The notes under the pieces are model-generated. The model saw only the letters and a program-made list of their open reading frames with translations. It was not told the DNA's origin and ran no database searches. Shown here one piece after another: positions 6,225 through 29,216 of a DNA stretch of 43,832 nt. Origin of the DNA: Chlorobiota bacterium (GTDB taxonomy: Bacteria > Bacteroidota > Ignavibacteria > Kapaibacteriales > NICIL-2); assembly GCA_026416585.1 (NCBI GenBank), contig JAOAEV010000016.1, positions 1 through 43,832 of the forward strand. Reading direction: 5' to 3'. How positions within the stretch are numbered: position 1 is the first letter of the stretch; each line of letters opens with the position of its first letter. The position numbers and the translations under genes are program-made.

Positions 6225-8642
6225 TTAAAAACGGTAGCGCACACCGAGTGCTAGCTGGAGGCGTGCAATGTACCAATCGGCATCGTTGAGCATACTGCCG
6301 AGTGGGTGGACGTATTGCGCAGTCAATACAAGACTCCATCGTGGTAGATGCGGCAGTGAAGCGACCAATCCAAATCCCCCAAACAGCTCGGGTACAGCCA
6401 CCTGTAGCGAGGACAGACGATACGTCTGCCGTCGAGCAATGTCGGGCGGCGTTGGTACAGGCTGTGGCAGAACAATGCGCCGCTCAATCGCTACCGAAGA
6501 ACTCAGCGGCAGCGCAGCTTGCACACCGCCAATAGCAGTTAGTTCATACACTTGGGTTCCCTTGATGCTGGAAAGAACGACAATTTCACTGCCGATACCG
6601 ATACCGAGCATCGGCGCAGTCGGTGTGAGGCGGTTGTCGAACTGAACCGGGATTACTGAATCGTTCGGCATGCGGAACAGCGATATTGTCGAATCCGGTG
6701 CTGATAGGCTCTGTCCGAATGGCTCGACCATTGTGCGAAGGAAAAAACGCACACGCTCGTTGAATGCGTAACCGATGCTGGTACCGATGCTGAGCGCAGA
6801 GCCGTAGGCGTTGCCTGTTGAGCGTGGGAATGTAAGAGTTCCAGTCGCATTGAATGCCGCAGTGTGGTACACTGCATTGACAATTCCATAGACGCTAAGG
6901 TGCCAGGGCAAGAATTCCGGACAGCGTTCCCCATCTGCGAACTCAAAGCGTCGGCGTTCTGGATTGTAGCAGTACACGTACTGAGCAATCCTTCGATTCC
7001 CCGCAGCATCAACGAAGGCGAGCGTAATATGTCCGTCCACTTGCGGATCCAGTGGATGGATGTTGAATTCCGTCTGTGGCTGACCGCGCTCCAGACGTGG
7101 TAGATATGCCCGAAGATTTACTGCTTCAAGTGGGACGATACTGTCGAGGCCACTGTCTGTTGGTCGGTCATCTCGTGCGATGACATGGAGTGCTTTTCCA
7201 CCCATCACCAGCTGGAATGTAGTTTGTGGGGGCTGTTGGTCGCGGAGGGTATCGAGTATAAAAAACGTTTGCCCTCCCATCGTGCCGTATGCATCATATG
7301 CATCAGTGCGATATCCGAAGCCATACGAGTATAGTCCAAACGGTTCGTCGGCGGTGATGGTGTGTGTACCAAAGTTCAGGCGCAGTTGTGCGATCGCATA
7401 GCTTGTGATTCCGATTCGCTCGAACTGTTCGCGTGTGATGGGTCGTCCGTCGAGCCGCAGACCGGAGAGCGCTTCTTCCCGTGCAACGACGTTGATGTAG
7501 TGGTCCCACGATCCTTGAACCGGTGTGATGATGCGGTAGCGGCGTGCGAACTGCTGCGTCGGCGAGATGAGAATCATCATCGGGTCGCCGATCTCGTCAC
7601 CATTGCCGTACCCTTGAGAAAATTGCGCGACAAGAATTGGCTTGTCGGCGGTAATCTGCATGTGATCAGTTGCGTTCGTTTCTTCGTAGTATTCGCCTGC
7701 ATCGAGCACAGCGATGAGCGTCTGGTTTTTGAATACTCGCGTGCGGTTCTGACTCGCCAAAATGCGCACAGTATATCGTGAACGTCCTTTGAGTTTGCCG
7801 ATGTAGTAATGTTTGCCCCATGTGTTCACCGGTGGAAGCTGTTCAACCAAATGATTACATGCTTTGACTCCCGGTGGTACGTACGCGCACGTATGCCCGC
7901 TGAACACCGCAATTGGCTTGGATGATCGAATACGTGTGCCGGTCAAATCGCCAGACCCAGTGGCAAAATATTGGGCGCGCACTTGGTACACCTGACCGCG
8001 ATCGAGCACAGTCGAATAGGCTTGCTGTGCTCCATGACCATCAGTGGTCGGGGTCGTCGGGAGGATCTCGACGCGTGTGTCATCCTCGGTAGCAACAATG
8101 GCAAAGATTGGCGTGAGAACGGCAGAGAGTTTGCTGTAGCACATAACGCGGTAGTCGGTGCCCAGAACATCGGTCGGTAGTGCGAGGTACGTATCTGTCG
8201 TTTGAATGCGACGATTGAGGGCATACACAGCAATCGGTGCAGAGCTTTGGATGTGCAGGGCACGCAGTTGTGGGCGCGGGAATGTATCCAATTCCGCTTC
8301 CGGTGTGATGCGAACGCTTCGCATTTCGCCAGCGGGTATCACTAAACGATGGCGAAAACTGAGCGAGGGGATTTCCATTGTAACCTGCGCATCAGTATCA
8401 GCCGTTACAAATACCTCTAAGAGCGCTGGCTCGTAGCTCCCTGGCTTGTTCGGGTCTTGTTCGCGAAAATTTTTCATGAAGCACAGCCAAAACTCTGTGC
8501 CGAGAGAGGTCAAGATGCGATAGCGAGCTGTTGAATCTTCCACATTTTGAGCAGGTATCCTCTGCACACAGACAAGCAGTGCGGCAGCAATGAGTACCAG
8601 CGGGGTGATCGGTCGTATGGCTCTCACTTGCCGATCATGCAT
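6225..8642 (-). CDS. Exported IgGFc-binding-like protein with C-terminal outer-membrane beta-barrel
   Basis: An 805-residue exported protein. The ATG at 8642 gives a good signal peptide (hydrophobic core PLVLIAAALLVCV, cleavage near IPAQ) and overlaps the upstream gene by 19 bases; the in-frame ATG at 8765 adds 41 unlikely residues. Residues ~40-440 resemble the IgGFc-binding N-terminal family (GTEFWLCFMKNF, APIAVYALNR, DTYLALPTDVLGTDYRVMCY, IVATEDDTRVEI, KPIAVFSGH, VEQLPPVNTWG). A middle Ig-like stretch follows. The last ~180 residues are glycine-rich alternating strands (LSIGTSIGYAF, MLGIGIGSEIVV, LQLALGVRYRF) ending in Phe, as expected of an outer-membrane barrel, and no T9SS tail is seen. 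So the recognition-like domain may be displayed by its own barrel. Its paralogue at 26214-29216 uses a T9SS tail instead. Confidence 0.75.
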   Translation of the reverse strand: MHDRQVRAIRPITPLVLIAAALLVCVQRIPAQNVEDSTARYRILTSLGTEFWLCFMKNFREQDPNKPGSYEPALLEVFVTADTDAQVTMEIPSLSFRHRLVIPAGEMRSVRITPEAELDTFPRPQLRALHIQSSAPIAVYALNRRIQTTDTYLALPTDVLGTDYRVMCYSKLSAVLTPIFAIVATEDDTRVEILPTTPTTDGHGAQQAYSTVLDRGQVYQVRAQYFATGSGDLTGTRIRSSKPIAVFSGHTCAYVPPGVKACNHLVEQLPPVNTWGKHYYIGKLKGRSRYTVRILASQNRTRVFKNQTLIAVLDAGEYYEETNATDHMQITADKPILVAQFSQGYGNGDEIGDPMMILISPTQQFARRYRIITPVQGSWDHYINVVAREEALSGLRLDGRPITREQFERIGITSYAIAQLRLNFGTHTITADEPFGLYSYGFGYRTDAYDAYGTMGGQTFFILDTLRDQQPPQTTFQLVMGGKALHVIARDDRPTDSGLDSIVPLEAVNLRAYLPRLERGQPQTEFNIHPLDPQVDGHITLAFVDAAGNRRIAQYVYCYNPERRRFEFADGERCPEFLPWHLSVYGIVNAVYHTAAFNATGTLTFPRSTGNAYGSALSIGTSIGYAFNERVRFFLRTMVEPFGQSLSAPDSTISLFRMPNDSVIPVQFDNRLTPTAPMLGIGIGSEIVVLSSIKGTQVYELTAIGGVQAALPLSSSVAIERRIVLPQPVPTPPDIARRQTYRLSSLQVAVPELFGGFGLVASLPHLPRWSLVLTAQYVHPLGSMLNDADWYIARLQLALGVRYRF

Positions 8643-9373
8643 GGTACAATCGACACATACTCGCCACGTCGCAAGCACAGGTAATAAAGACCTGCCGAGG
8701 TCGCCGTGCGATTGAACGACAGCTCGACGCTGTGGGTACCAGCAGGTAGTAGCCCCAAGCTCCACTGTGCTAATTCTCTGCCGACGGGATCATATAGCAC
8801 GACCACAGGAGTACTGCTATCCGCCAACCATAACGTAACGCGGAAGCGATCTCCCTCGACTGGGTGCGGTGCAATCGGACCGACAGCGGTGAGTGGTTTT
8901 ACCTCTGCCGTCGCTGCTGGTTTGAACACGAGGGAACCTCCGCTTGCTTGAACGGTGAGCGGTTGTCCATTCTGCCATACTGCAGTGGGTAAGATATGCG
9001 CCGGTGAAGTACCACTCCATAGAGCAGAACAGACCGCAACAAGCTCAATGCGGGATGTTGCCTGTGCACAAACCATACGTGCTGTAAGCCAACCTGTTTC
9101 TCCAAAACGAAGTTCATCCTCGATATTGAAGATGTGAATTTCAGCAGGGAACTTTGCCAAGATTGTTTCGATACGGAGCGCTGCACGTGGATACTCCATG
9201 CGCAATCCGATCGTGTCGCCTGTTGCCACTGGTGTTGAAATGACAATCGTCAGTGCGGCTGTTTCACCTCGATGGAGCACCGTATCAGGCAGCACAACTG
9301 TCACGCGCTGAGCGTGGAGATACACTGTTCCAGTTGCAAACAGTGCACAGCAGAGAAATGTGTGGAGTGTCAT
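8624..9373 (-). CDS. Small T9SS-type secreted protein
   Basis: A 249-residue exported protein. The ATG at 9373 starts directly at a signal peptide (MTLHTFLCCALFATGTVYLHAQ); the ATG at 9415 would add 14 residues in front of it. The mature part begins with a cohesin-like or Ig-like beta-domain (VLPDTVLHRGETAALTIVIS). The C-terminal ~85 residues look like a T9SS type A sorting domain: IAPHPVEGDRFRVTLWL (PHP replacing the usual PNP), VVVLYDPVGRELAQW, then SAGLYYLCLRRGEYVSIVP. Such tails direct proteins across the outer membrane and are usually removed on attachment. It overlaps the downstream IgGFc/barrel gene by 19 bases, so the two are probably co-translated and may act as surface partners. Binding target unknown. 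Confidence 0.7.
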   Translation of the reverse strand: MTLHTFLCCALFATGTVYLHAQRVTVVLPDTVLHRGETAALTIVISTPVATGDTIGLRMEYPRAALRIETILAKFPAEIHIFNIEDELRFGETGWLTARMVCAQATSRIELVAVCSALWSGTSPAHILPTAVWQNGQPLTVQASGGSLVFKPAATAEVKPLTAVGPIAPHPVEGDRFRVTLWLADSSTPVVVLYDPVGRELAQWSLGLLPAGTHSVELSFNRTATSAGLYYLCLRRGEYVSIVPCMIGK

Positions 9374-20912: not shown

Positions 20913-21006
20913 TTAGTTTATAGTAGTTAGCTGTGATGCCGCGGCAAAATATAAACTAAATTCTCTTCATATTCCTGCCTCGTTATTACGACTTCGTAGT
21001 AACCTG

Positions 21007-21030
21007 GTAACACTGTCGTAACACTGTCAT
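21007..21030 (+). promoter_or_regulatory. Pho-box-like direct repeat (candidate PhoB site)
   Basis: GTAACACTGTC occurs twice in perfect tandem (21007-21017 and 21018-21028). The stretch 21013-21030, CTGTCGTAACACTGTCAT, matches the enterobacterial Pho-box consensus CTGTCATAwAwCTGTCAy at 16 of 18 positions, with the correct 11-base period. It lies 75 bases upstream of the receptor start on the same strand. The PhoB site in this lineage may differ from the E. coli one, so regulation by phosphate limitation is an inference. Confidence 0.45.
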
Positions 21031-21105
21031 TACCACCCCGAAACATACGTGAGGGAGTTTCGCATTCAGTTTGTGTGTGGTTGTTTCACAACGTGCGTTT
21101 TTACC

Positions 21106-23973
21106 ATGTTCCTAAGGTTTGTCGTGTGTGTGGTCCTTGCTTGTGCTGTAGTCGTTAGTGCTGAACAGCCAGGCAATATCAGTGGAAAAGTTCGCGAAGC
21201 ATCCAGCGGAGAGCCGTTGCGCGGCGCGACTATCATCGTCGAGGGGACAAAAAAAGGTGCAATAACCGATCCCAAAGGCTCGTTCACAATCAAGAACCTC
21301 CCTGCTGGTACCTATACACTTCTTGTCCGTTATGTCGGCTACGAAACCAAACGGATCAGTGGTATCACTGTCGAAGCGGGAAAAACTGCAAACGTAGCAG
21401 TTACGCTTGATCGAGATCGTGAGCTACGGGCGCGAGATGTTGTCGTTGAAACGCGGCGCACGACCGAAACCCAGGCTGCTCTCTTGGCACAACGAAAAAA
21501 TAGTGCACTGGTATCCGATGGTGTTAGCACCGAGGAAATCAAAAAAATGCCTGATGCTGACGCTGGACAAGCGCTCCGCCGTGTTCCAGGAGTCACGCTT
21601 GCCGGTGATAAGTATATCGTCGTTCGCGGCACAAGCGATCGTTACAACAACGTCACACTCGACGGGGTACCGCTGACCTCGACCGAGCCGGATAAAAAAG
21701 CGTTCACCTACGATCTTTTCCCCAGCGACTTACTCGAAAGCGCAACGATTGCAAAGACATTCACACCAGATCTGCCGGGCAACTTCACTGGTGGCTTGGT
21801 GCAACTGGCAACAGTCGAATTTCCCTCCCAGCGGATGCTTAAGGCGAGTATTTCGTCGTCAGTCAACGACAATGCGTTCATGCAACCTAATCGCTTCATT
21901 AGTCCGACAGGCGGACGCTGGGACTGGCTGGGATTCGACGACGGCACACGTTCGAGATTGCCCAACGGCATGCCATCCGACCGTCGCCAGATGAGTGAGC
22001 TGCTGAGCGCAGTGCGTAATCCGTATGACACGACCGGTGCGCGTGAGCGCTGGACGGAACTTGCTCGCTCGTTCAATAACAAAAACTGGCAACCATATCG
22101 GCGAACCCTTGTATCGCCAAATAGCTCCCTGTCGCTTGCATATTCGGATGTGGTGTCGCTGTTCGGGAGTGACTTTGGCATTGCGGCGAGCCTGGTGTAC
22201 TCGAATTCGTGGAGTGTTTCGACGATTGAACGGAACGGAATTCTTGCTGATCGATCACTGTGGTTCCGCACTGGTGGGTATAATCCAACACGGACAACGA
22301 ACCTTGGTGGAATGCTCAACTTCGCTTGGCGCGCCAACGAATACAGCACCATTGCTCTCCGGACGGTCTATAGCCACTCTGCCGACGAAGACGTGGTGGT
22401 ACTCAACGGACAAGACTACGTACGCATCTTCGACACCAAGCAAGTTTCGATGCAGTACGTTGAAAAATCACTCGTGACGTCGGTGCTTGCGGGTACGCAC
22501 ACGCTGCCAATGCTGGGGAATGCATCCCTCGAATGGAAGGTCGGCTATTCACAGTCGAATCGCAATGAGCCGGATTTTCGTCGCTTTCGTTTTGCGCGTC
22601 AAACACCCCACGACGATGCGTACATCGAACCGTACACATCCGACATCATTGCATTTACGCCGCTGGCGCAGGGCGACGGCGTTCGAGCTGGACGCTTCTT
22701 TTCGAACCTTGATGATCGGTCATATACGGGTGGATTCGATCTGAAGCTCCCTGTTGGTGATGTGACACTGAAGACAGGTGTGTACACCGAACAACGTCAA
22801 CGCACGTTTCGAGCGCGGTCGTTTACCTACGTGCCGGGTCCTGAATTCTCGCTTGACTACAGTGTTTTCACACTACCGGACTCGGTGCAGTGGGCGGATC
22901 CATCGCGCATTTTTCAGCCTGAGAATCTTGGTCCGCACGGCATAGGGATTTCCGAAGATTCCCGCCTTGCTGATGCCTATGACGCCAGTGAACGGCTCTA
23001 TGCCGGCTATGCAATGGCAGATTGGTCGGTCGGTGCAGTCCTTGGCGTGCCACTGCGAATTATCGGTGGTGTGCGATATGAGGACAATCGGCAACAGCTA
23101 TCGAGCTTCGACTTGAGCGATCGTTCTGTGTCAGTTGATTTGCTCACGCGTGATCTATTGCCAGCGCTGTCGGTGGTATTGCAACTGACCCCGACGATGA
23201 ATCTACGGCTGGCGGCTTCACAGACGCTGGCACGTCCGGCGCTGCGCGAGTTCGCGCCATTTGCATTCTACGATTTTTCGACTCAATCACAAGTGATGGG
23301 CAACCCCAATTTGACACGTGCTCTTATCACAAATGCGGACATTCGGTGGGAGTGGTTCCTTGCACCAGGCGAAGTGATTTCGGTTGGTGCATTTACCAAG
23401 CGATTCCTGCACGCGATCGAGGAGACGATTTATCTTGAGCAGCAAGAAATCGCACGGACCTACCGGAATGCCGAGGGACCAGCGACTAACTACGGAGCGG
23501 AGATCGAGCTTCGCAAACGACTCGATATGCTTGGAGCATGGGGCGAGAACGTGATGGTTTCTGCTAATTACGCACGAATCTTCTCGGAGATTGCCGTTGC
23601 ACAGGGCGGACAAATTGACCGACGTCCTATGTGGGGACAGTCACCCTATACGCTCAATCTCGTTGCATCAGCAGCGATACCGGAGTGGAACGCAACTATC
23701 AGCGTTGGTTATAACGTATTTGGTCGGCGTATTGTACTTGTCGGCTTGCGTAATGCATACACGTTCCCTGATCCACATACCTATGAACTTCCGCGTGATG
23801 TTGTGGACGTGACCGTAACAAAGCGCTTCGATGCAGTGGAATTGCGGCTGTCGCTCCGTGATCTGCTCAACCAGCCATTGCGTTGGGAGCAAGGCGGAAC
23901 GGTAGTGCAATCAACGATTCGTGGACGTTCGATTGGTCTTGGGATAAGCTATCGGCTCGCGAACGAGCAATGA
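21106..23973 (+). CDS. TonB-dependent outer-membrane receptor
   Basis: A 955-residue receptor. The ATG at 21106 starts a signal peptide (MFLRFVVCVVLACAVVVSAEQ); the GTG at 21049 would add 19 residues in front. Residues ~25-105 are a carboxypeptidase-like regulatory domain (GNISGKVREASSGEPLRGAT, LPAGTYTLLVRYVGYE), common in Bacteroidota receptors. The plug domain follows (ADAGQALRRVPGVTLAGDKY, VVRGTSDRYNNVTLDGVPL, then DLLESATIAKTFTPDLPGNF), and then a large barrel with repeated aromatic strands ending GLGISYRLANEQ. Energised by TonB-ExbBD, such receptors import scarce ligands. There is no SusD partner; instead the next gene, 25 bases on, encodes a T9SS beta-helix protein. The upstream Pho-box-like repeat suggests a phosphate-related ligand. 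Confidence 0.93.
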   Translation: MFLRFVVCVVLACAVVVSAEQPGNISGKVREASSGEPLRGATIIVEGTKKGAITDPKGSFTIKNLPAGTYTLLVRYVGYETKRISGITVEAGKTANVAVTLDRDRELRARDVVVETRRTTETQAALLAQRKNSALVSDGVSTEEIKKMPDADAGQALRRVPGVTLAGDKYIVVRGTSDRYNNVTLDGVPLTSTEPDKKAFTYDLFPSDLLESATIAKTFTPDLPGNFTGGLVQLATVEFPSQRMLKASISSSVNDNAFMQPNRFISPTGGRWDWLGFDDGTRSRLPNGMPSDRRQMSELLSAVRNPYDTTGARERWTELARSFNNKNWQPYRRTLVSPNSSLSLAYSDVVSLFGSDFGIAASLVYSNSWSVSTIERNGILADRSLWFRTGGYNPTRTTNLGGMLNFAWRANEYSTIALRTVYSHSADEDVVVLNGQDYVRIFDTKQVSMQYVEKSLVTSVLAGTHTLPMLGNASLEWKVGYSQSNRNEPDFRRFRFARQTPHDDAYIEPYTSDIIAFTPLAQGDGVRAGRFFSNLDDRSYTGGFDLKLPVGDVTLKTGVYTEQRQRTFRARSFTYVPGPEFSLDYSVFTLPDSVQWADPSRIFQPENLGPHGIGISEDSRLADAYDASERLYAGYAMADWSVGAVLGVPLRIIGGVRYEDNRQQLSSFDLSDRSVSVDLLTRDLLPALSVVLQLTPTMNLRLAASQTLARPALREFAPFAFYDFSTQSQVMGNPNLTRALITNADIRWEWFLAPGEVISVGAFTKRFLHAIEETIYLEQQEIARTYRNAEGPATNYGAEIELRKRLDMLGAWGENVMVSANYARIFSEIAVAQGGQIDRRPMWGQSPYTLNLVASAAIPEWNATISVGYNVFGRRIVLVGLRNAYTFPDPHTYELPRDVVDVTVTKRFDAVELRLSLRDLLNQPLRWEQGGTVVQSTIRGRSIGLGISYRLANEQ

Positions 23974-23998: not shown

Positions 23999-26020
23999 AT
24001 GCGGCGTTTGTTGATCCTCCTGTGTTTGGCGATGGTGGTTGGTGCGTCAGCACAGCAAATCACCGTCCGATTGAAAAAACCAGCCGGTGGAGAGGTGTTC
24101 CGTCCAGGTCGGTCGGAGGACTTGGAGTGGGATACGACAGCATATCCTGGCATTTATCCGACGTGGCGGTTCCAATTTGCAACCTCGCCAACAGGTCCGT
24201 GGACAGACTTGCCCGGGGCTACTGCTGTCAAAGACTCTGCGGCGCGACGCGGACGCTTTGCAGGGGGATTTCGTGTTCCAGCTGTTTCTACCACCAACGG
24301 TTATGTGCGGATGGTGAGGGTCAAATCAGACGGAACGCTCGATGAAACTGTTACCAGTCGGAATCAACAGCCGTTCACCATAGAGCAACCATCAGCGGTT
24401 CGTCCCGATTCCGTCTTGCGAGCACCTATCACCGGACGCGTGCAGCTGAACTCGAAGAAAATCTACGGACTCGATGGTTATGTGTTCGTTGACGATGGTG
24501 GTGTTCTGGTTGTCGAGCCAGGTACGATCATTATCGGCGATACAGTCGGGCAGAATTCAGCGCTCTGCGTCAATCGTGGCGGTAAGATCATTGCAGAGGG
24601 TACGCGCCAACGCCCGATCATCATGACATCATCGGCACCGCCGGGACAGCGGGCCTCAGGTGATTGGGGCGGTTTGCTCATTTGTGGTCGTGCACGAACT
24701 AATCATCCGGGTGGTCAAGCAGCGCTCGAAGGCGGAATTGCTGATGCAAATCAAGTACGCGGATGGTTCGGTGGTACCGACGATGATGATTCGAGTGGTA
24801 TCGTTCGCTTTGTGCGCATTGAATTTGCTGGTATCGCCGCTGCACCAAATTCTGAGCTCAACTCACTTACACTTGGTGGTGTCGGGCGACGCACAGTGAT
24901 CGAATACGTCCAGTGCAGCTACGGCAATGATGATGCCTTCGAATGGTTTGGTGGTTCAGTTAATGGGAAGTACTTGATTTCAACCGGTTGTCTGGACGAT
25001 GATTTCGATACCGACAATGGATGGAGTGGACGGGTACAATTTGGAGTGGGGCAACGCTTTCGTTCCCGTGCGGATCAATCCATTTCGCAGGCATTTGAAT
25101 CGGACAATGATGCCAGCGGCTCGTTCAATTCTCCGAAAACCAGTGGTGTGTTTTCGAACATGACGCTCATTGGACCGCTACAGGACACGTCGTGGTCAGC
25201 CGGTACTGGTGTGGCACCCAATACGTACAACTCACGCTTCGGTGCAGCAGCACAGATTCGCCGGAATTCACGCCTGAGCATTATCAATAGCGTCTTTCTC
25301 GGTTGGCCGCGCGGTGTTGAAATCGCCGGAAGTAACACCATGGCCGCGGCAGCAGGGGATTCTTTATTAGTTCGGAACAATACGTTCTACGGCATAAAGG
25401 GAACTTGGCTCAATTTCGCCGGTGGAACACCACCACAAGGCATGACCACATCCTGGATCGAGCAGCAGCAGTTTGCCAACATTCTCGATAAGAGTTCACC
25501 AGCTCTGGCGATGCTGATGAATCCATTCTCGACCACGATCGACTTCAATCCGCAACCGATGGCGAATTCTCCGTTGGCATCGCAATCGACAAGTTTTGAA
25601 AGTACACCGCGTGTGGACCTGAGTTGGTTTACGCGTGTCAACTATCGCGGAGCGTTTGCACCGTATCCGGTTGAGCGCTGGGACTTGCCGTGGGCGGAAT
25701 ACGATCCCGCCAATACTGACTACACGCTCTCTGTTGGCAGCGATGAGCAAACGCTACAGCTTGCGGTCGAAATTGTTCCCAATCCAGTACGTGATGTAGC
25801 GGCGATTCGATATACGTTACGGACTGATGATCGTATCAGCCTTAGCCTCACCGATGCCAGTGGGCGTGAAGTTGTGCGATATCTATCGCAGTATCCACAC
25901 CACGCAAGCATCTACGAAGTACCGCTGAATGCAAGCTGGCTATCAAACGGTGTGTACTTTGTGCGGCTTCTGAGCGAGCGGCATGGAGCGGTTATTGCTC
26001 CCGTTGTCATAGCGCGTTAG
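23999..26020 (+). CDS. T9SS-secreted right-handed beta-helix protein
   Basis: A 673-residue secreted protein with signal peptide MRRLLILLCLAMVVGASAQ. Residues ~20-130 form an Ig-like domain (KPAGGEVFRPGRSEDLEWD). Residues ~145-520 look like a parallel beta-helix (VFVDDGGVLVVEPGTIIIGD, GDWGGLLICGRA, RTVIEYVQCSYGNDDAFEWF, SRLSIINSVFLGWPRGVEI), with acidic clusters such as DDDDSSG and CLDDDFDTDNGWSG that could bind cations. The last ~90 residues are a T9SS type A sorting domain (VEIVPNPVRDVAAIRYTL, LSLTDASGREV, LSNGVYFVRLLSERHGAVIAP). Close linkage to the receptor suggests it binds or releases the receptor's ligand at the surface. No catalytic residues could be assigned. Confidence 0.85.
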   Translation: MRRLLILLCLAMVVGASAQQITVRLKKPAGGEVFRPGRSEDLEWDTTAYPGIYPTWRFQFATSPTGPWTDLPGATAVKDSAARRGRFAGGFRVPAVSTTNGYVRMVRVKSDGTLDETVTSRNQQPFTIEQPSAVRPDSVLRAPITGRVQLNSKKIYGLDGYVFVDDGGVLVVEPGTIIIGDTVGQNSALCVNRGGKIIAEGTRQRPIIMTSSAPPGQRASGDWGGLLICGRARTNHPGGQAALEGGIADANQVRGWFGGTDDDDSSGIVRFVRIEFAGIAAAPNSELNSLTLGGVGRRTVIEYVQCSYGNDDAFEWFGGSVNGKYLISTGCLDDDFDTDNGWSGRVQFGVGQRFRSRADQSISQAFESDNDASGSFNSPKTSGVFSNMTLIGPLQDTSWSAGTGVAPNTYNSRFGAAAQIRRNSRLSIINSVFLGWPRGVEIAGSNTMAAAAGDSLLVRNNTFYGIKGTWLNFAGGTPPQGMTTSWIEQQQFANILDKSSPALAMLMNPFSTTIDFNPQPMANSPLASQSTSFESTPRVDLSWFTRVNYRGAFAPYPVERWDLPWAEYDPANTDYTLSVGSDEQTLQLAVEIVPNPVRDVAAIRYTLRTDDRISLSLTDASGREVVRYLSQYPHHASIYEVPLNASWLSNGVYFVRLLSERHGAVIAPVVIAR

Positions 26021-26123: not shown

Positions 26124-26213
26124 TGCGTCCTTGTGCACTGAAACGAAATGTTCTCCGTTTGTGTTCTTGCGCCGTACTTTCGAATAAAACGCTCACCTGC
26201 GGTGGAGGCGGCA

Positions 26214-29200
26214 ATGAAACAAGTGCTTTTCCAACTGCTGACGCTGTCGCTGCTGGCAGCCGCCCAACAATTGCCTGATAGCAAGGGCACAGACTTTTGG
26301 TTTTGCTTCATGCCGAACTTTCACAACGGCGGTATCAATAATCAAGCAGCAGCTGAGCGCGACTCAGTGTTCATCTTCGTTGCTGCGGATGAACCGACGA
26401 CCGTTACCCTCCGCTACACACCGTATGATAACCGCCTCCCGCAGGAATTGACGTACCGCATTGTCAACCCTCAGAATATGCTTATCATTAGGATGTCATT
26501 CTATGGGGTTGAATTGGTCGGTATCAACGGAGGAACGTTTACGGTTCCGGTTGCTTCGCGTCATACCCAACGACCGGTGCCATACTCGTTCCACCTAACA
26601 ACTGACCGTGATGTTACCGTCTATGCAATGAGTCATGCTGAAAAAACCAGCGATGCATTTTTAGTGCTTCCTACCGACGCACTCGGCAAAGATTATTACG
26701 TGATGAGTTTTAATGCCGATCCATATGACGGACGTGGTCAAACCCCGTCGCAGTTTGCCATCGTCGCTACTGAAGATTCGACAGTGGTTGAGTTCCTTCG
26801 CGTGACGGCACCGACAACGGATGGAACGCTGAGTCGAGTCGTGTACCTCGATCGTGGTGAGGTGTACTTAGTGCAATCGCAGGCAAACTCGAATGCAAAC
26901 GATCTAACCGGCACGCGCATCAAGGCAAATCGTCCGATTGCTGTTTTTGGGGGGCATCAGCGGGCACGTGTGCCGATAGATGGTCGCACAAGTGGCGCAT
27001 CACGAGATTGTTTGATCGAGCAGCTTCCACCGATCAACACGTGGGGTCGCTCGGCGTTGATGGTACCATATCCGGATCCGCCGGATGAGGAGCACATTGG
27101 ACCAGACCTCTACCGCATCTTGGCGGCACGCGACAGTACGGTCATCTACCTCGACAGCGTCCCGCTGGTGACACTCAATGCAGGGCAGTTTTACCAGGCA
27201 TCATTGACTGCACCGCATTCAGTCCATGCTAACCGTCCCATTTTGGTGGCACACTATCGGCGCACATCTACACCTGGTGGGCAGCTTGTTGAGCTTTATC
27301 GCCTTGGCGATCCATTTATGATGCTCATCCCACCAGCAGAGCAATTCCAAACAAGCTATCGTTTCATTTGTCCACGCATCTATGAGGATACACTCAATGG
27401 TGTACGACTTGTCGAGCTGTACAAGTATCATTTCGTGACGATTGTCATTCCAGATACCGCTGTAAGCTCGCTTATCCTCGATGGTCGACCGGTCAGGCAA
27501 CCGTCGTTCCCGATTCCGAAGAGTAGCTATCGTTATCTACAAATTCAGTTGAGTGCAGGGGTTCACACCGTATCAGCATCTGTACCCTTTGGTATCTACG
27601 TGTACGGATATGGCTTTGCCGATTCGTATGGCTACATTGGTGGAATGAGCTTCCGGCGATACGATTTCGATCCGCCGCGCCTGTCGTCGCTGCCGCAGTG
27701 TCCGCCATATCGGCTGGTTGTCTATGACACGCTTCCCGGAGATAGCCGCGTTGACGTAGTACAGGTGATTGAAGATTCCACCGAAAACGTTGCGTGGCAG
27801 ATTCAACGTTGGACACTACTGCCCGAGGATTCGGTGGTTGTTGCACTGTCGCTGATTGATCCCTACCAGGATGGGGTAATTACTCTTCGGGCGCACGATG
27901 CCGAGCAATTCATTACGTCGGCACGCATCTCGATTCCGGGCATGACACTGCGCATAACCGGCAGCGATGGTATGCTTACACGTCCGCCGGCTACATTTAG
28001 CTATCGCAGTGCGACCGCGCGCAGTTCGTGTTTCCCGATCGCGCTCGTCAATACTGGGAAATTTGCACAAACAGTGCTACGGCTCGGCAGTGCGCATGGA
28101 ACTATTAGCAGCGATGCACTACCTGTCAATATAGTACCGGGCGACAGCTTCCGTGTGGATGTTTGCTATCGTGTTACACAAACAGGCATTATTCATGATA
28201 CGCTCTGGTTCGAGATGCCGTGTGGTCGGTTCGTGGCAGCAACGTTCGATGTGGAATTCATCATTGACTCTTTGCCGCCAACAGTCCAACGCGTTGACCG
28301 GCCGTGCCCTCCGCTGCATGATATCACCGTCTCAGAACGCGGCTACACGGAAACCGGCATAGCTGACATCCGAGTGCTTGACTCGAATAATGTACTCATC
28401 ACCATCACAGCATCATCGGTCGAAGGGATGCTGTCCTCCCAAATGCAACATATCAAGGTTGCTCATCGTGATTGGCGTTACGACGGAAGGTACAGTATTG
28501 CCGTCACTGACTCGGTGGGGAATACCTCGCTTATCAGCGGCACGTTTGTTGGTCACACCGTCATGATTGTGGGAAGCTCACTTCAGGGTTCAGTGCCAGA
28601 TTCACTCTCAGTAGAATACCACTACACTGCCAAGAGCAATGAGTTTTTCTGCGACACAGTCGAGTTGTACAACTACGGCTTGTATCCCCACACATTCGAG
28701 CGACTGGTCCGTCGTGGGGTCGAGTTTTCCGTTCCACCATCGTATGTCCCACTTGTGCTCATGCCTGGTCAGCGTGTACGTGTACCGTTATGTGTCTTGA
28801 CGCCGTCGTACACACACGGCACTTCGAATCGCTCTGATGATACACTGGAACTCAGTATCGGATGCTATAGACGTGCTCTTCCTGTGACAATTAGTAGCTT
28901 ACATTCTTCGTACACAGCGCCAAGCAGTTGTGATGTGACAGTTCAAGCAGGCACTGCAGTAGGGGACACAACCACTATGGTTGTCCCACATGGTAGCATT
29001 GAGTACAACGGTTCAACGGTGCGCATACAGTGGGATGCAACGGTGCGTGCGACGGTGCGGCTATTCTCAGCCAGCGGTCAATGTTTTCGCTACATTCAGC
29101 ATGAAGGCGAGGCAGTCCAGCTCGACATAAGCGATTTGCCTGCAGGTGTGTATTGGCTGCTTGCACAGACCAAAGATAACATCCTGCGTACACCGATCCT

Positions 29201-29216
29201 GTGGATGGGACAGTAA
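26214..29216 (+). CDS. IgGFc-binding-like protein with T9SS sorting tail
   Basis: A 1000-residue secreted protein. The ATG at 26214 has GGAGG at 26204-26208 and a signal peptide (MKQVLFQLLTLSLLAAAQQ); the ATG at 26148 is rejected. Residues ~22-450 match the IgGFc-binding N-terminal family and parallel the protein at 6225-8642 (GTDFWFCFMPNFHNGG, VTVYAMSHAEKTSDAFLVLP, DALGKDYYVMSFN, KANRPIAVFGGHQRARV, IEQLPPINTWG). The middle (~470-900) contains Ig-like beta-domains with Cys pairs, including two with similar endings. The last ~80 residues are a T9SS type A tail (VRLFSASGQCFRYIQ, LDISDLPAGVYWLLAQTKDN). The family is named for an animal IgG-binding mucin-like protein; the bacterial ligand is not known and antibody binding should not be assumed. 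Confidence 0.8.
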   Translation: MKQVLFQLLTLSLLAAAQQLPDSKGTDFWFCFMPNFHNGGINNQAAAERDSVFIFVAADEPTTVTLRYTPYDNRLPQELTYRIVNPQNMLIIRMSFYGVELVGINGGTFTVPVASRHTQRPVPYSFHLTTDRDVTVYAMSHAEKTSDAFLVLPTDALGKDYYVMSFNADPYDGRGQTPSQFAIVATEDSTVVEFLRVTAPTTDGTLSRVVYLDRGEVYLVQSQANSNANDLTGTRIKANRPIAVFGGHQRARVPIDGRTSGASRDCLIEQLPPINTWGRSALMVPYPDPPDEEHIGPDLYRILAARDSTVIYLDSVPLVTLNAGQFYQASLTAPHSVHANRPILVAHYRRTSTPGGQLVELYRLGDPFMMLIPPAEQFQTSYRFICPRIYEDTLNGVRLVELYKYHFVTIVIPDTAVSSLILDGRPVRQPSFPIPKSSYRYLQIQLSAGVHTVSASVPFGIYVYGYGFADSYGYIGGMSFRRYDFDPPRLSSLPQCPPYRLVVYDTLPGDSRVDVVQVIEDSTENVAWQIQRWTLLPEDSVVVALSLIDPYQDGVITLRAHDAEQFITSARISIPGMTLRITGSDGMLTRPPATFSYRSATARSSCFPIALVNTGKFAQTVLRLGSAHGTISSDALPVNIVPGDSFRVDVCYRVTQTGIIHDTLWFEMPCGRFVAATFDVEFIIDSLPPTVQRVDRPCPPLHDITVSERGYTETGIADIRVLDSNNVLITITASSVEGMLSSQMQHIKVAHRDWRYDGRYSIAVTDSVGNTSLISGTFVGHTVMIVGSSLQGSVPDSLSVEYHYTAKSNEFFCDTVELYNYGLYPHTFERLVRRGVEFSVPPSYVPLVLMPGQRVRVPLCVLTPSYTHGTSNRSDDTLELSIGCYRRALPVTISSLHSSYTAPSSCDVTVQAGTAVGDTTTMVVPHGSIEYNGSTVRIQWDATVRATVRLFSASGQCFRYIQHEGEAVQLDISDLPAGVYWLLAQTKDNILRTPILWMGQ

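Follow-up and report, generated by a model that had tools for sequence, protein, structure and literature searches.

A probable Pho-box array upstream of a TonB-dependent receptor and beta-helix gene pair in a Kapabacteria genome

Organization of the receptor locus and its repeat array

The window, by which we mean the whole 43,832-nucleotide stretch analyzed, contains a TonB-dependent receptor gene followed closely by a gene for a secreted beta-helix protein, both rightward-transcribed and preceded by an array of short direct repeats. The features of the locus are as follows.

21007..21050, + strand: predicted Pho-box array of four 11-bp units, GTAACACTGTC, GTAACACTGTC, ATTACCACCCC, and GAAACATACGT (repeat search; conserved in 6/6 Kapabacteria orthologues)
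21055..21062, + strand: probable -7 promoter element GAGTTTCG, of the Bacteroidota TAnnTTTG type; the last unit of the array begins 15 bp ahead of it
21106..23973, + strand: TonB-dependent receptor with N-terminal CarboxypepD_reg and plug domains (PF13715, PF07715), 955 aa from ATG 21106
23999..26020, + strand: secreted right-handed beta-helix protein of 673 aa that ends in a T9SS type A sorting tail, encoded 25 bp beyond the receptor gene
24395..25438, + strand: beta-helix core of that protein, approximately residues 133-480, with invariant acidic residues (AlphaFold model, structure alignment, and residue conservation)
25775..25984, + strand: T9SS C-terminal sorting domain, residues 593-662 (PF18962, 26.8 bits with a cut-off of 27; TIGR04183, 25.4 bits with a cut-off of 23)

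The receptor reading frame spans 21049-23973, with the ATG at 21106 as the likely start, and its best NCBIfam match, TIGR01782, falls below the cut-off of that model. It does not belong with the SusCD/PusCD systems, as it scores 63.6 bits with OMP_RagA_SusC against a cut-off of 368.25 and its neighbor is a beta-helix protein; a receptor adjoining an exported beta-helix protein is the arrangement of the PUSIV and ElpS-CC0171 type of pair discussed below. A beta-helix homologue is present at 22 of 28 receptor loci; the six without one include some where the contig stops shortly past the receptor. The window also encodes two large IgGFc_binding-domain proteins (PF17517), at 6225-8765 on the reverse strand and at 26148-29216 on the forward strand, the latter directly downstream of the beta-helix gene.

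The beta-helix protein is balanced in overall charge (63 acidic and 61 basic residues). Comparison of 13 homologues shows 13 acidic positions with conservation of at least 90%, of which eleven are invariant, with D311, D312, E315, D333, D334, D337, D339, E367, and D369 as examples. Its AlphaFold model has a mean pLDDT of 74.5, with higher values in the helix core. The best structural matches are right-handed beta-helices that act on polysaccharides (tailspikes, AlgE4, polygalacturonase, and PL6 lyases, with Z scores of 17-22); model residues 133-567 align with tailspike 6w4q (Z 22.0, rmsd 3.2 over 271 residues), AlgE4 (Z 21.1, rmsd 3.9 over 281), and the polygalacturonase ADPG2 (Z 19.7, rmsd 3.5 over 272). 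A common fold in a predicted model is not by itself proof of function. The full model gives low TM-scores with Foldseek, a PDB sequence search with a beta-helix profile gave no match, and a plasmid collection has 21 records with a homologue, at less than 60% identity, with no annotation naming a function among the 12 matches listed.

Positions 21007-21030 read GTAACACTGTC GTAACACTGTC AT, and the preliminary description of a perfect 11-base tandem repeat 75 bases before the receptor start is accurate in both respects: Tandem Repeats Finder reports 21007-21028 with a period of 11, 2.0 copies, and a 100% match, the top score among seven rows for the window, and base 21030 lies 75 bases before the ATG at 21106. 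The true site is longer than the repeat at 21007-21030, however, extending to 21050 as four in-register 11-bp units of which the last two (ATTACCACCCC and GAAACATACGT) are decayed, and it has the head-to-tail 11-bp direct repeats that a Pho box requires. The four-unit pattern has one match in the window and none in 100 shuffles. An imperfect inverted repeat, GTTATTACGACTTCGTAGTAAC, abuts the array on its upstream side at 20982-21003 and by eye is absent from the orthologues.

The earlier count of 16 of 18 matches to the PhoB consensus is also correct, with the 18-mer CTGTCGTAACACTGTCAT at 21013-21030 differing from the Escherichia coli consensus CTGTCATAWAWCTGTCAY at two positions; it is the only site in the window that fits with two mismatches, and none of 100 shuffles yields one. 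The E. coli CTGTCAT register is nonetheless rejected, as 18 other compared sites score 9-13/18 and the fit is peculiar to the window copy. The conserved unit is (G/T)TAACA-N5 with a period of 11. In 10 receptor arrays, positions 1-6 (GTAACA) carry 0.88, 1.55, 1.83, 1.66, 1.02, and 0.66 bits and positions 7-11 just 0.02-0.39 bits, nine other arrays being alike; columns 1-5 of this matrix are inflated for sites found by pattern, but not for the orthologues, and position 6 is outside the pattern. Because the information sits in positions 1-6, the CTGTC emphasized previously is the variable half of the unit, and GTAACA is its core. Three exact KWAAC units in succession occur at no place in the window's own genome, compared with three places for the reversed control, and the array in this genome is therefore decayed. 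An E. coli-like 17-mer scan of the same genome is uninformative (37 places, with 75 for the reversed control).

Orthologous promoters and core phosphate genes

A receptor scan identified 28 relatives, six of them from Kapabacteria/Chlorobiota metagenome-assembled genomes (MAGs) (L012-L017, with 83, 77, 77, 77, 55, and 41% receptor identity, respectively). All six have an 11-bp periodic (G/T/A)TAAC array approximately 100-120 bp before the start codon, in flanks that barely align, and the array score is matched by no more than 1 of 60 shuffles in L012, L013, L014, L016, and L017 (L015 lay outside this test). Among distant homologues from Bacteroidia, Halieaceae, and other groups, the score in the same test is mostly at chance: more than 1 of 60 shuffles reach it in L018, L020-L022, L025-L027, L029-L035, L038, and L039, which have no significant array, and at most 1 of 60 does so in L019, L023, and L024, with the L019 and L024 arrays on the other strand. 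No E. coli-type Pho boxes score above shuffles before the Halieaceae homologues.

In five Kapabacteria genomes (∼12 Mb), the four-unit pattern with up to three mismatches occurs at five places, compared with one for the reversed control. Four of these are promoters of the window-type receptor, and the fifth (L048, in genome G004) precedes a choice-of-anchor I/phytase-like gene; no other PF13449 gene was found across the five genomes. A further receptor array (K039) has four mismatches and was hence missed by the pattern.

The genes for PstS and an OprP-like porin (PF07396) carry a two-unit box, GTTAnCnAAnC-RTAACA, located 28 bp before TAGTTTYG (39 bp for pstS of MAG305). The composite of this box and the -7 element occurs at 10 places in the five genomes and at two for the reversed control; all 10 belong to pstS (G000-G003), the OprP-like porin (G000-G002), or a response regulator (again G000-G002). 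The window's own genome, G000, has exactly three such places, one each before pstS, the OprP-like porin, and the PhoB-like regulator, so that the same motif precedes core Pho genes of this genome, in two-unit form and out of phase with the receptor array by 2 bp. The best NCBIfam models for the response regulator are those for PhoB (RespRegPhoBBctds, 232.7-240 bits), with scores below the cut-off of 270. G004 has no composite box within three mismatches, and its pstS and porin promoters hold weaker versions. By eye, the first pstS unit overlaps the 3' end of the preceding reading frame in four of the five genomes, so conservation there may be partly coding, and the composite box was for this reason sought elsewhere in the genomes. 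No array was seen near phoU in L041, where the contig begins inside the upstream gene. The reverse strand of G000 contains a second own-genome match to the pattern of four-unit array plus -7 element.

The preliminary description had proposed control by phosphate starvation and named orthologous promoters and the pst genes of the same genome as places where absence of the repeat would count against it; a box is present in both, and the proposed control is supported. Its further suggestions, uptake of an organic or polymeric phosphate and binding of a cation-phosphate ligand by acidic clusters of the helix protein, are conjectural, although eleven acidic positions of that protein are invariant.

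Promoter spacing and class-wide distribution

The Bacteroidota -7 element is TAnnTTTG. Across 23 sites, the TAnnTTYG score at +15 from the start of the last unit averages 5.0 of 6, compared with 1.0-2.8 at each of the remaining offsets (5 to 59), and +15 is the best or tied-best offset in 19 of the 23; no -7 element is found at +15 in four of them, the PstS sites L070, L071, and L074 and the porin-like L075. The units of the receptor arrays thus lie 15, 26, 37, and 48 bp before the -7 element, and the two units in the boxes before pstS, oprP, and phoB lie 28 and 39 bp from it, a 2-bp phase difference. A motif, GTGTGTGG, is present approximately 10-25 bp past TAGTTTYG in most of the Kapabacteria promoters examined (window positions 21073-21080, L012-L016, and the pstS, oprP, and phoU upstream regions), and may be a conserved feature of the start site or the 5' leader.

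When 100 genomes from the class are scanned, the four-unit pattern occurs at 27 places in 21 genomes, compared with 39 for the reversed pattern. The raw counts are not enriched, and the case rests on the genes downstream. By a crude open reading frame filter, 13 of the 27 arrays lie upstream of a same-strand reading frame, compared with none of 30 control loci (fetched from the 39); the filter calls the receptor promoters L058, L059, L060, L062, and L078 "intragenic" owing to long antisense frames, and the counts are left unadjusted. The genes behind 15 of the 27 arrays are receptor homologues (eight, including the window; L058 and L081 assigned by BLAST, L063 as the K040 orthologue, and the others by eye), PstS (three; PF12849), and OprP-type porins (four; L072 assigned by Pfam, and L066, L067, and L076 by similarity to L072). 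The remainder comprise one DUF5690 membrane protein (L082), one possible porin (L075), and 10 with other genes or none; 10 of the 27 places precede or sit in genes without a phosphate link. The DUF5690 protein (PF18943; L082:1599-2909) is possibly an uncharacterized phosphate-starvation transporter.

The combined pattern of array and -7 element has matches in 252 of 391 genomes of the class. Thirty loci were fetched, as selected by the search tool itself rather than as a random sample, and 24 have a frame of at least 80 aa starting within 250 bp and six do not. The 24 frames code for members of the window receptor family (12, with 31-38% identity to the window receptor), PstS (three), metallophosphoesterases (two), PAP2 proteins (two), Porin_O_P proteins (two), and unassigned proteins (three). 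Homologues of the window receptor are thus the most frequent genes behind the class-wide arrays (8 of 27, and 12 of the 30 fetched with a -7 element). Overlapping array matches 22 bp apart at G161:C22:50657-50733 and G199:C180:3492-3568 suggest arrays of six or more units.

A probable class-specific Pho box and its putative role

Pho boxes are 11-nucleotide direct repeats with a species-dependent consensus, the units being CTGTCAT in E. coli and GTTCACC in Streptomyces coelicolor (PMC4415409). The boxes described here resemble these PhoB and PhoP boxes in having head-to-tail 11-nucleotide repeats immediately before the promoter core and in preceding pst, porin, and regulator genes, but differ in their (G/T)TAACA core, in reaching four units or more, and in being coupled to a TAnnTTTG -7 element where the others have a sigma-70 -10. 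The Bacillus subtilis PhoP and cyanobacterial boxes have TTAACA and TTAACC cores. Comparison of the promoters gives good support to a Pho box of the class's own type, with a phylum-specific core. In the same phylum, the Riemerella anatipestifer PhoP motif from DAP-seq is similar, with TTTAACA as its most conserved bases; in its available text, the work associates PhoP with pathogenicity and oxygen stress and mentions no phosphate role (PMC9603813). The portion seen of a Bacteroides fragilis PhoB paper gives no box consensus (PMC3547664).

Similar gene pairs are described in two other bacteria. In Flavobacterium johnsoniae, PUSIV consists of the TonB-dependent receptor Fjoh_0545 and the beta-helix (IPR011050) lipoprotein FII Fjoh_0546, located beside phoBR and strongly induced by phosphate depletion (PMC8115612). 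The likeness to the window pair is drawn from gene order and domain descriptions, and the window beta-helix protein differs in having a T9SS tail and in not being a lipoprotein, with phoB elsewhere in the genome. Chryseobacterium sp. ZHDP1 has a homologous pair (31% identical for the receptor and 42% for the beta-helix protein) divergent from PhoB/PhoR-like genes, in the same order as in PUSIV. In Caulobacter crescentus, ElpS (CC0170), made under phosphate starvation, adjoins the TonB receptor CC0171, reported as constitutive, and the two co-occur in genomes (PMC2996285). Here too an exported protein is encoded next to a TonB-dependent receptor, as judged by description, but ElpS is a lipoprotein released T2SS-dependently, whereas the window protein has a T9SS tail. 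In a search outside which most subscription journals lay, no literature was found linking a Bacteroidetes Pho box and phosphate starvation to a TonB-dependent receptor, nor any on PusCD from 2021 on, and we do not claim that the regulon is unpublished; Kapabacteria papers on phosphate or TonB-dependent topics include none on regulation as judged by title and the start of the abstract.

As the box precedes the receptor in related bacteria and the phosphate-scavenging genes of its own genome, the array is very probably a phosphate-starvation switch. We are thus largely confident, from these sequence comparisons, that PhoB would activate the receptor and the T9SS-exported beta-helix protein under phosphate starvation through the array. 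The phosphorylated PhoB-like regulator, whose gene (G000:C15) lies behind its own two-unit box, would bind the array when phosphate is scarce and bring RNA polymerase to the -7 element at 21055-21062, and the two genes would be switched on as a single transcript. The exported beta-helix protein may then capture or process a phosphorus-bearing ligand at the cell surface, for TonB-driven import by the receptor. A phosphorus-bearing polymer is the preferred guess for this ligand, at even odds or less.

The repeat could be a chance 11-bp duplication resembling the E. coli Pho box, and the four-unit counts below those of the reversed control (27 and 39) are in keeping with this, but conservation of its position in 6/6 orthologues already refutes it, and the fixed +15 spacing, the fitting downstream genes, and the absence of control loci (0/30, compared with 13/27 arrays) upstream of a gene by the crude filter leave its probability negligible. 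It is improbable, to a lesser degree, that the array is the operator of a non-phosphate OmpR-family regulator with a TTAACA-like repeat, the pst, oprP, and phoB sites being a merely similar motif. Many OmpR-type regulators bind such direct repeats. Both the phase difference between the 28/39-bp boxes and the 15/26/37/48-bp arrays and the oxygen-stress association of the Riemerella motif (PMC9603813) point this way; against it, the four-unit, +15 architecture elsewhere in the class precedes OprP-type porins and phosphoesterases, and four-unit arrays precede PstS in the class and the phytase-like gene in G004.

An alternative to only the second half of the mechanism is that the pair, though controlled by a true Pho box, serves a starvation role unrelated to phosphorus, such as remodeling of surface polysaccharide or scavenging of metals. 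Pho regulons include indirect members. The best structural alignments of the modeled beta-helix core are with proteins that act on polysaccharides (Z 17-22), but the Flavobacterium and Caulobacter authors link similar pairs to phosphorus acquisition, on indirect evidence (PMC8115612, PMC2996285), and we regard this alternative as unlikely, if well short of negligible. Returning to a phosphorus role, a broader proposal that we hold tentatively, as possible but doubtful, is that the pair represents a widely distributed alternative to SusCD/PusCD, in which a beta-helix protein anchored by T9SS or lipid and bearing invariant acidic residues would replace SusD for capture or cleavage of a phosphorus polymer, and that it is the most frequent strong PhoB target in the class.

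Control by PhoB would give a condition, phosphate starvation, to an uncharacterized receptor/beta-helix family spanning Kapabacteria to Gammaproteobacteria, and would point the search for the receptor's ligand toward phosphorus compounds. The (G/T)TAACA-N5 repeats at a fixed spacing from TAnnTTTG offer a usable Pho-box definition for a group represented here largely by MAGs, one that lets the phosphate regulon of such genomes be read from sequence.
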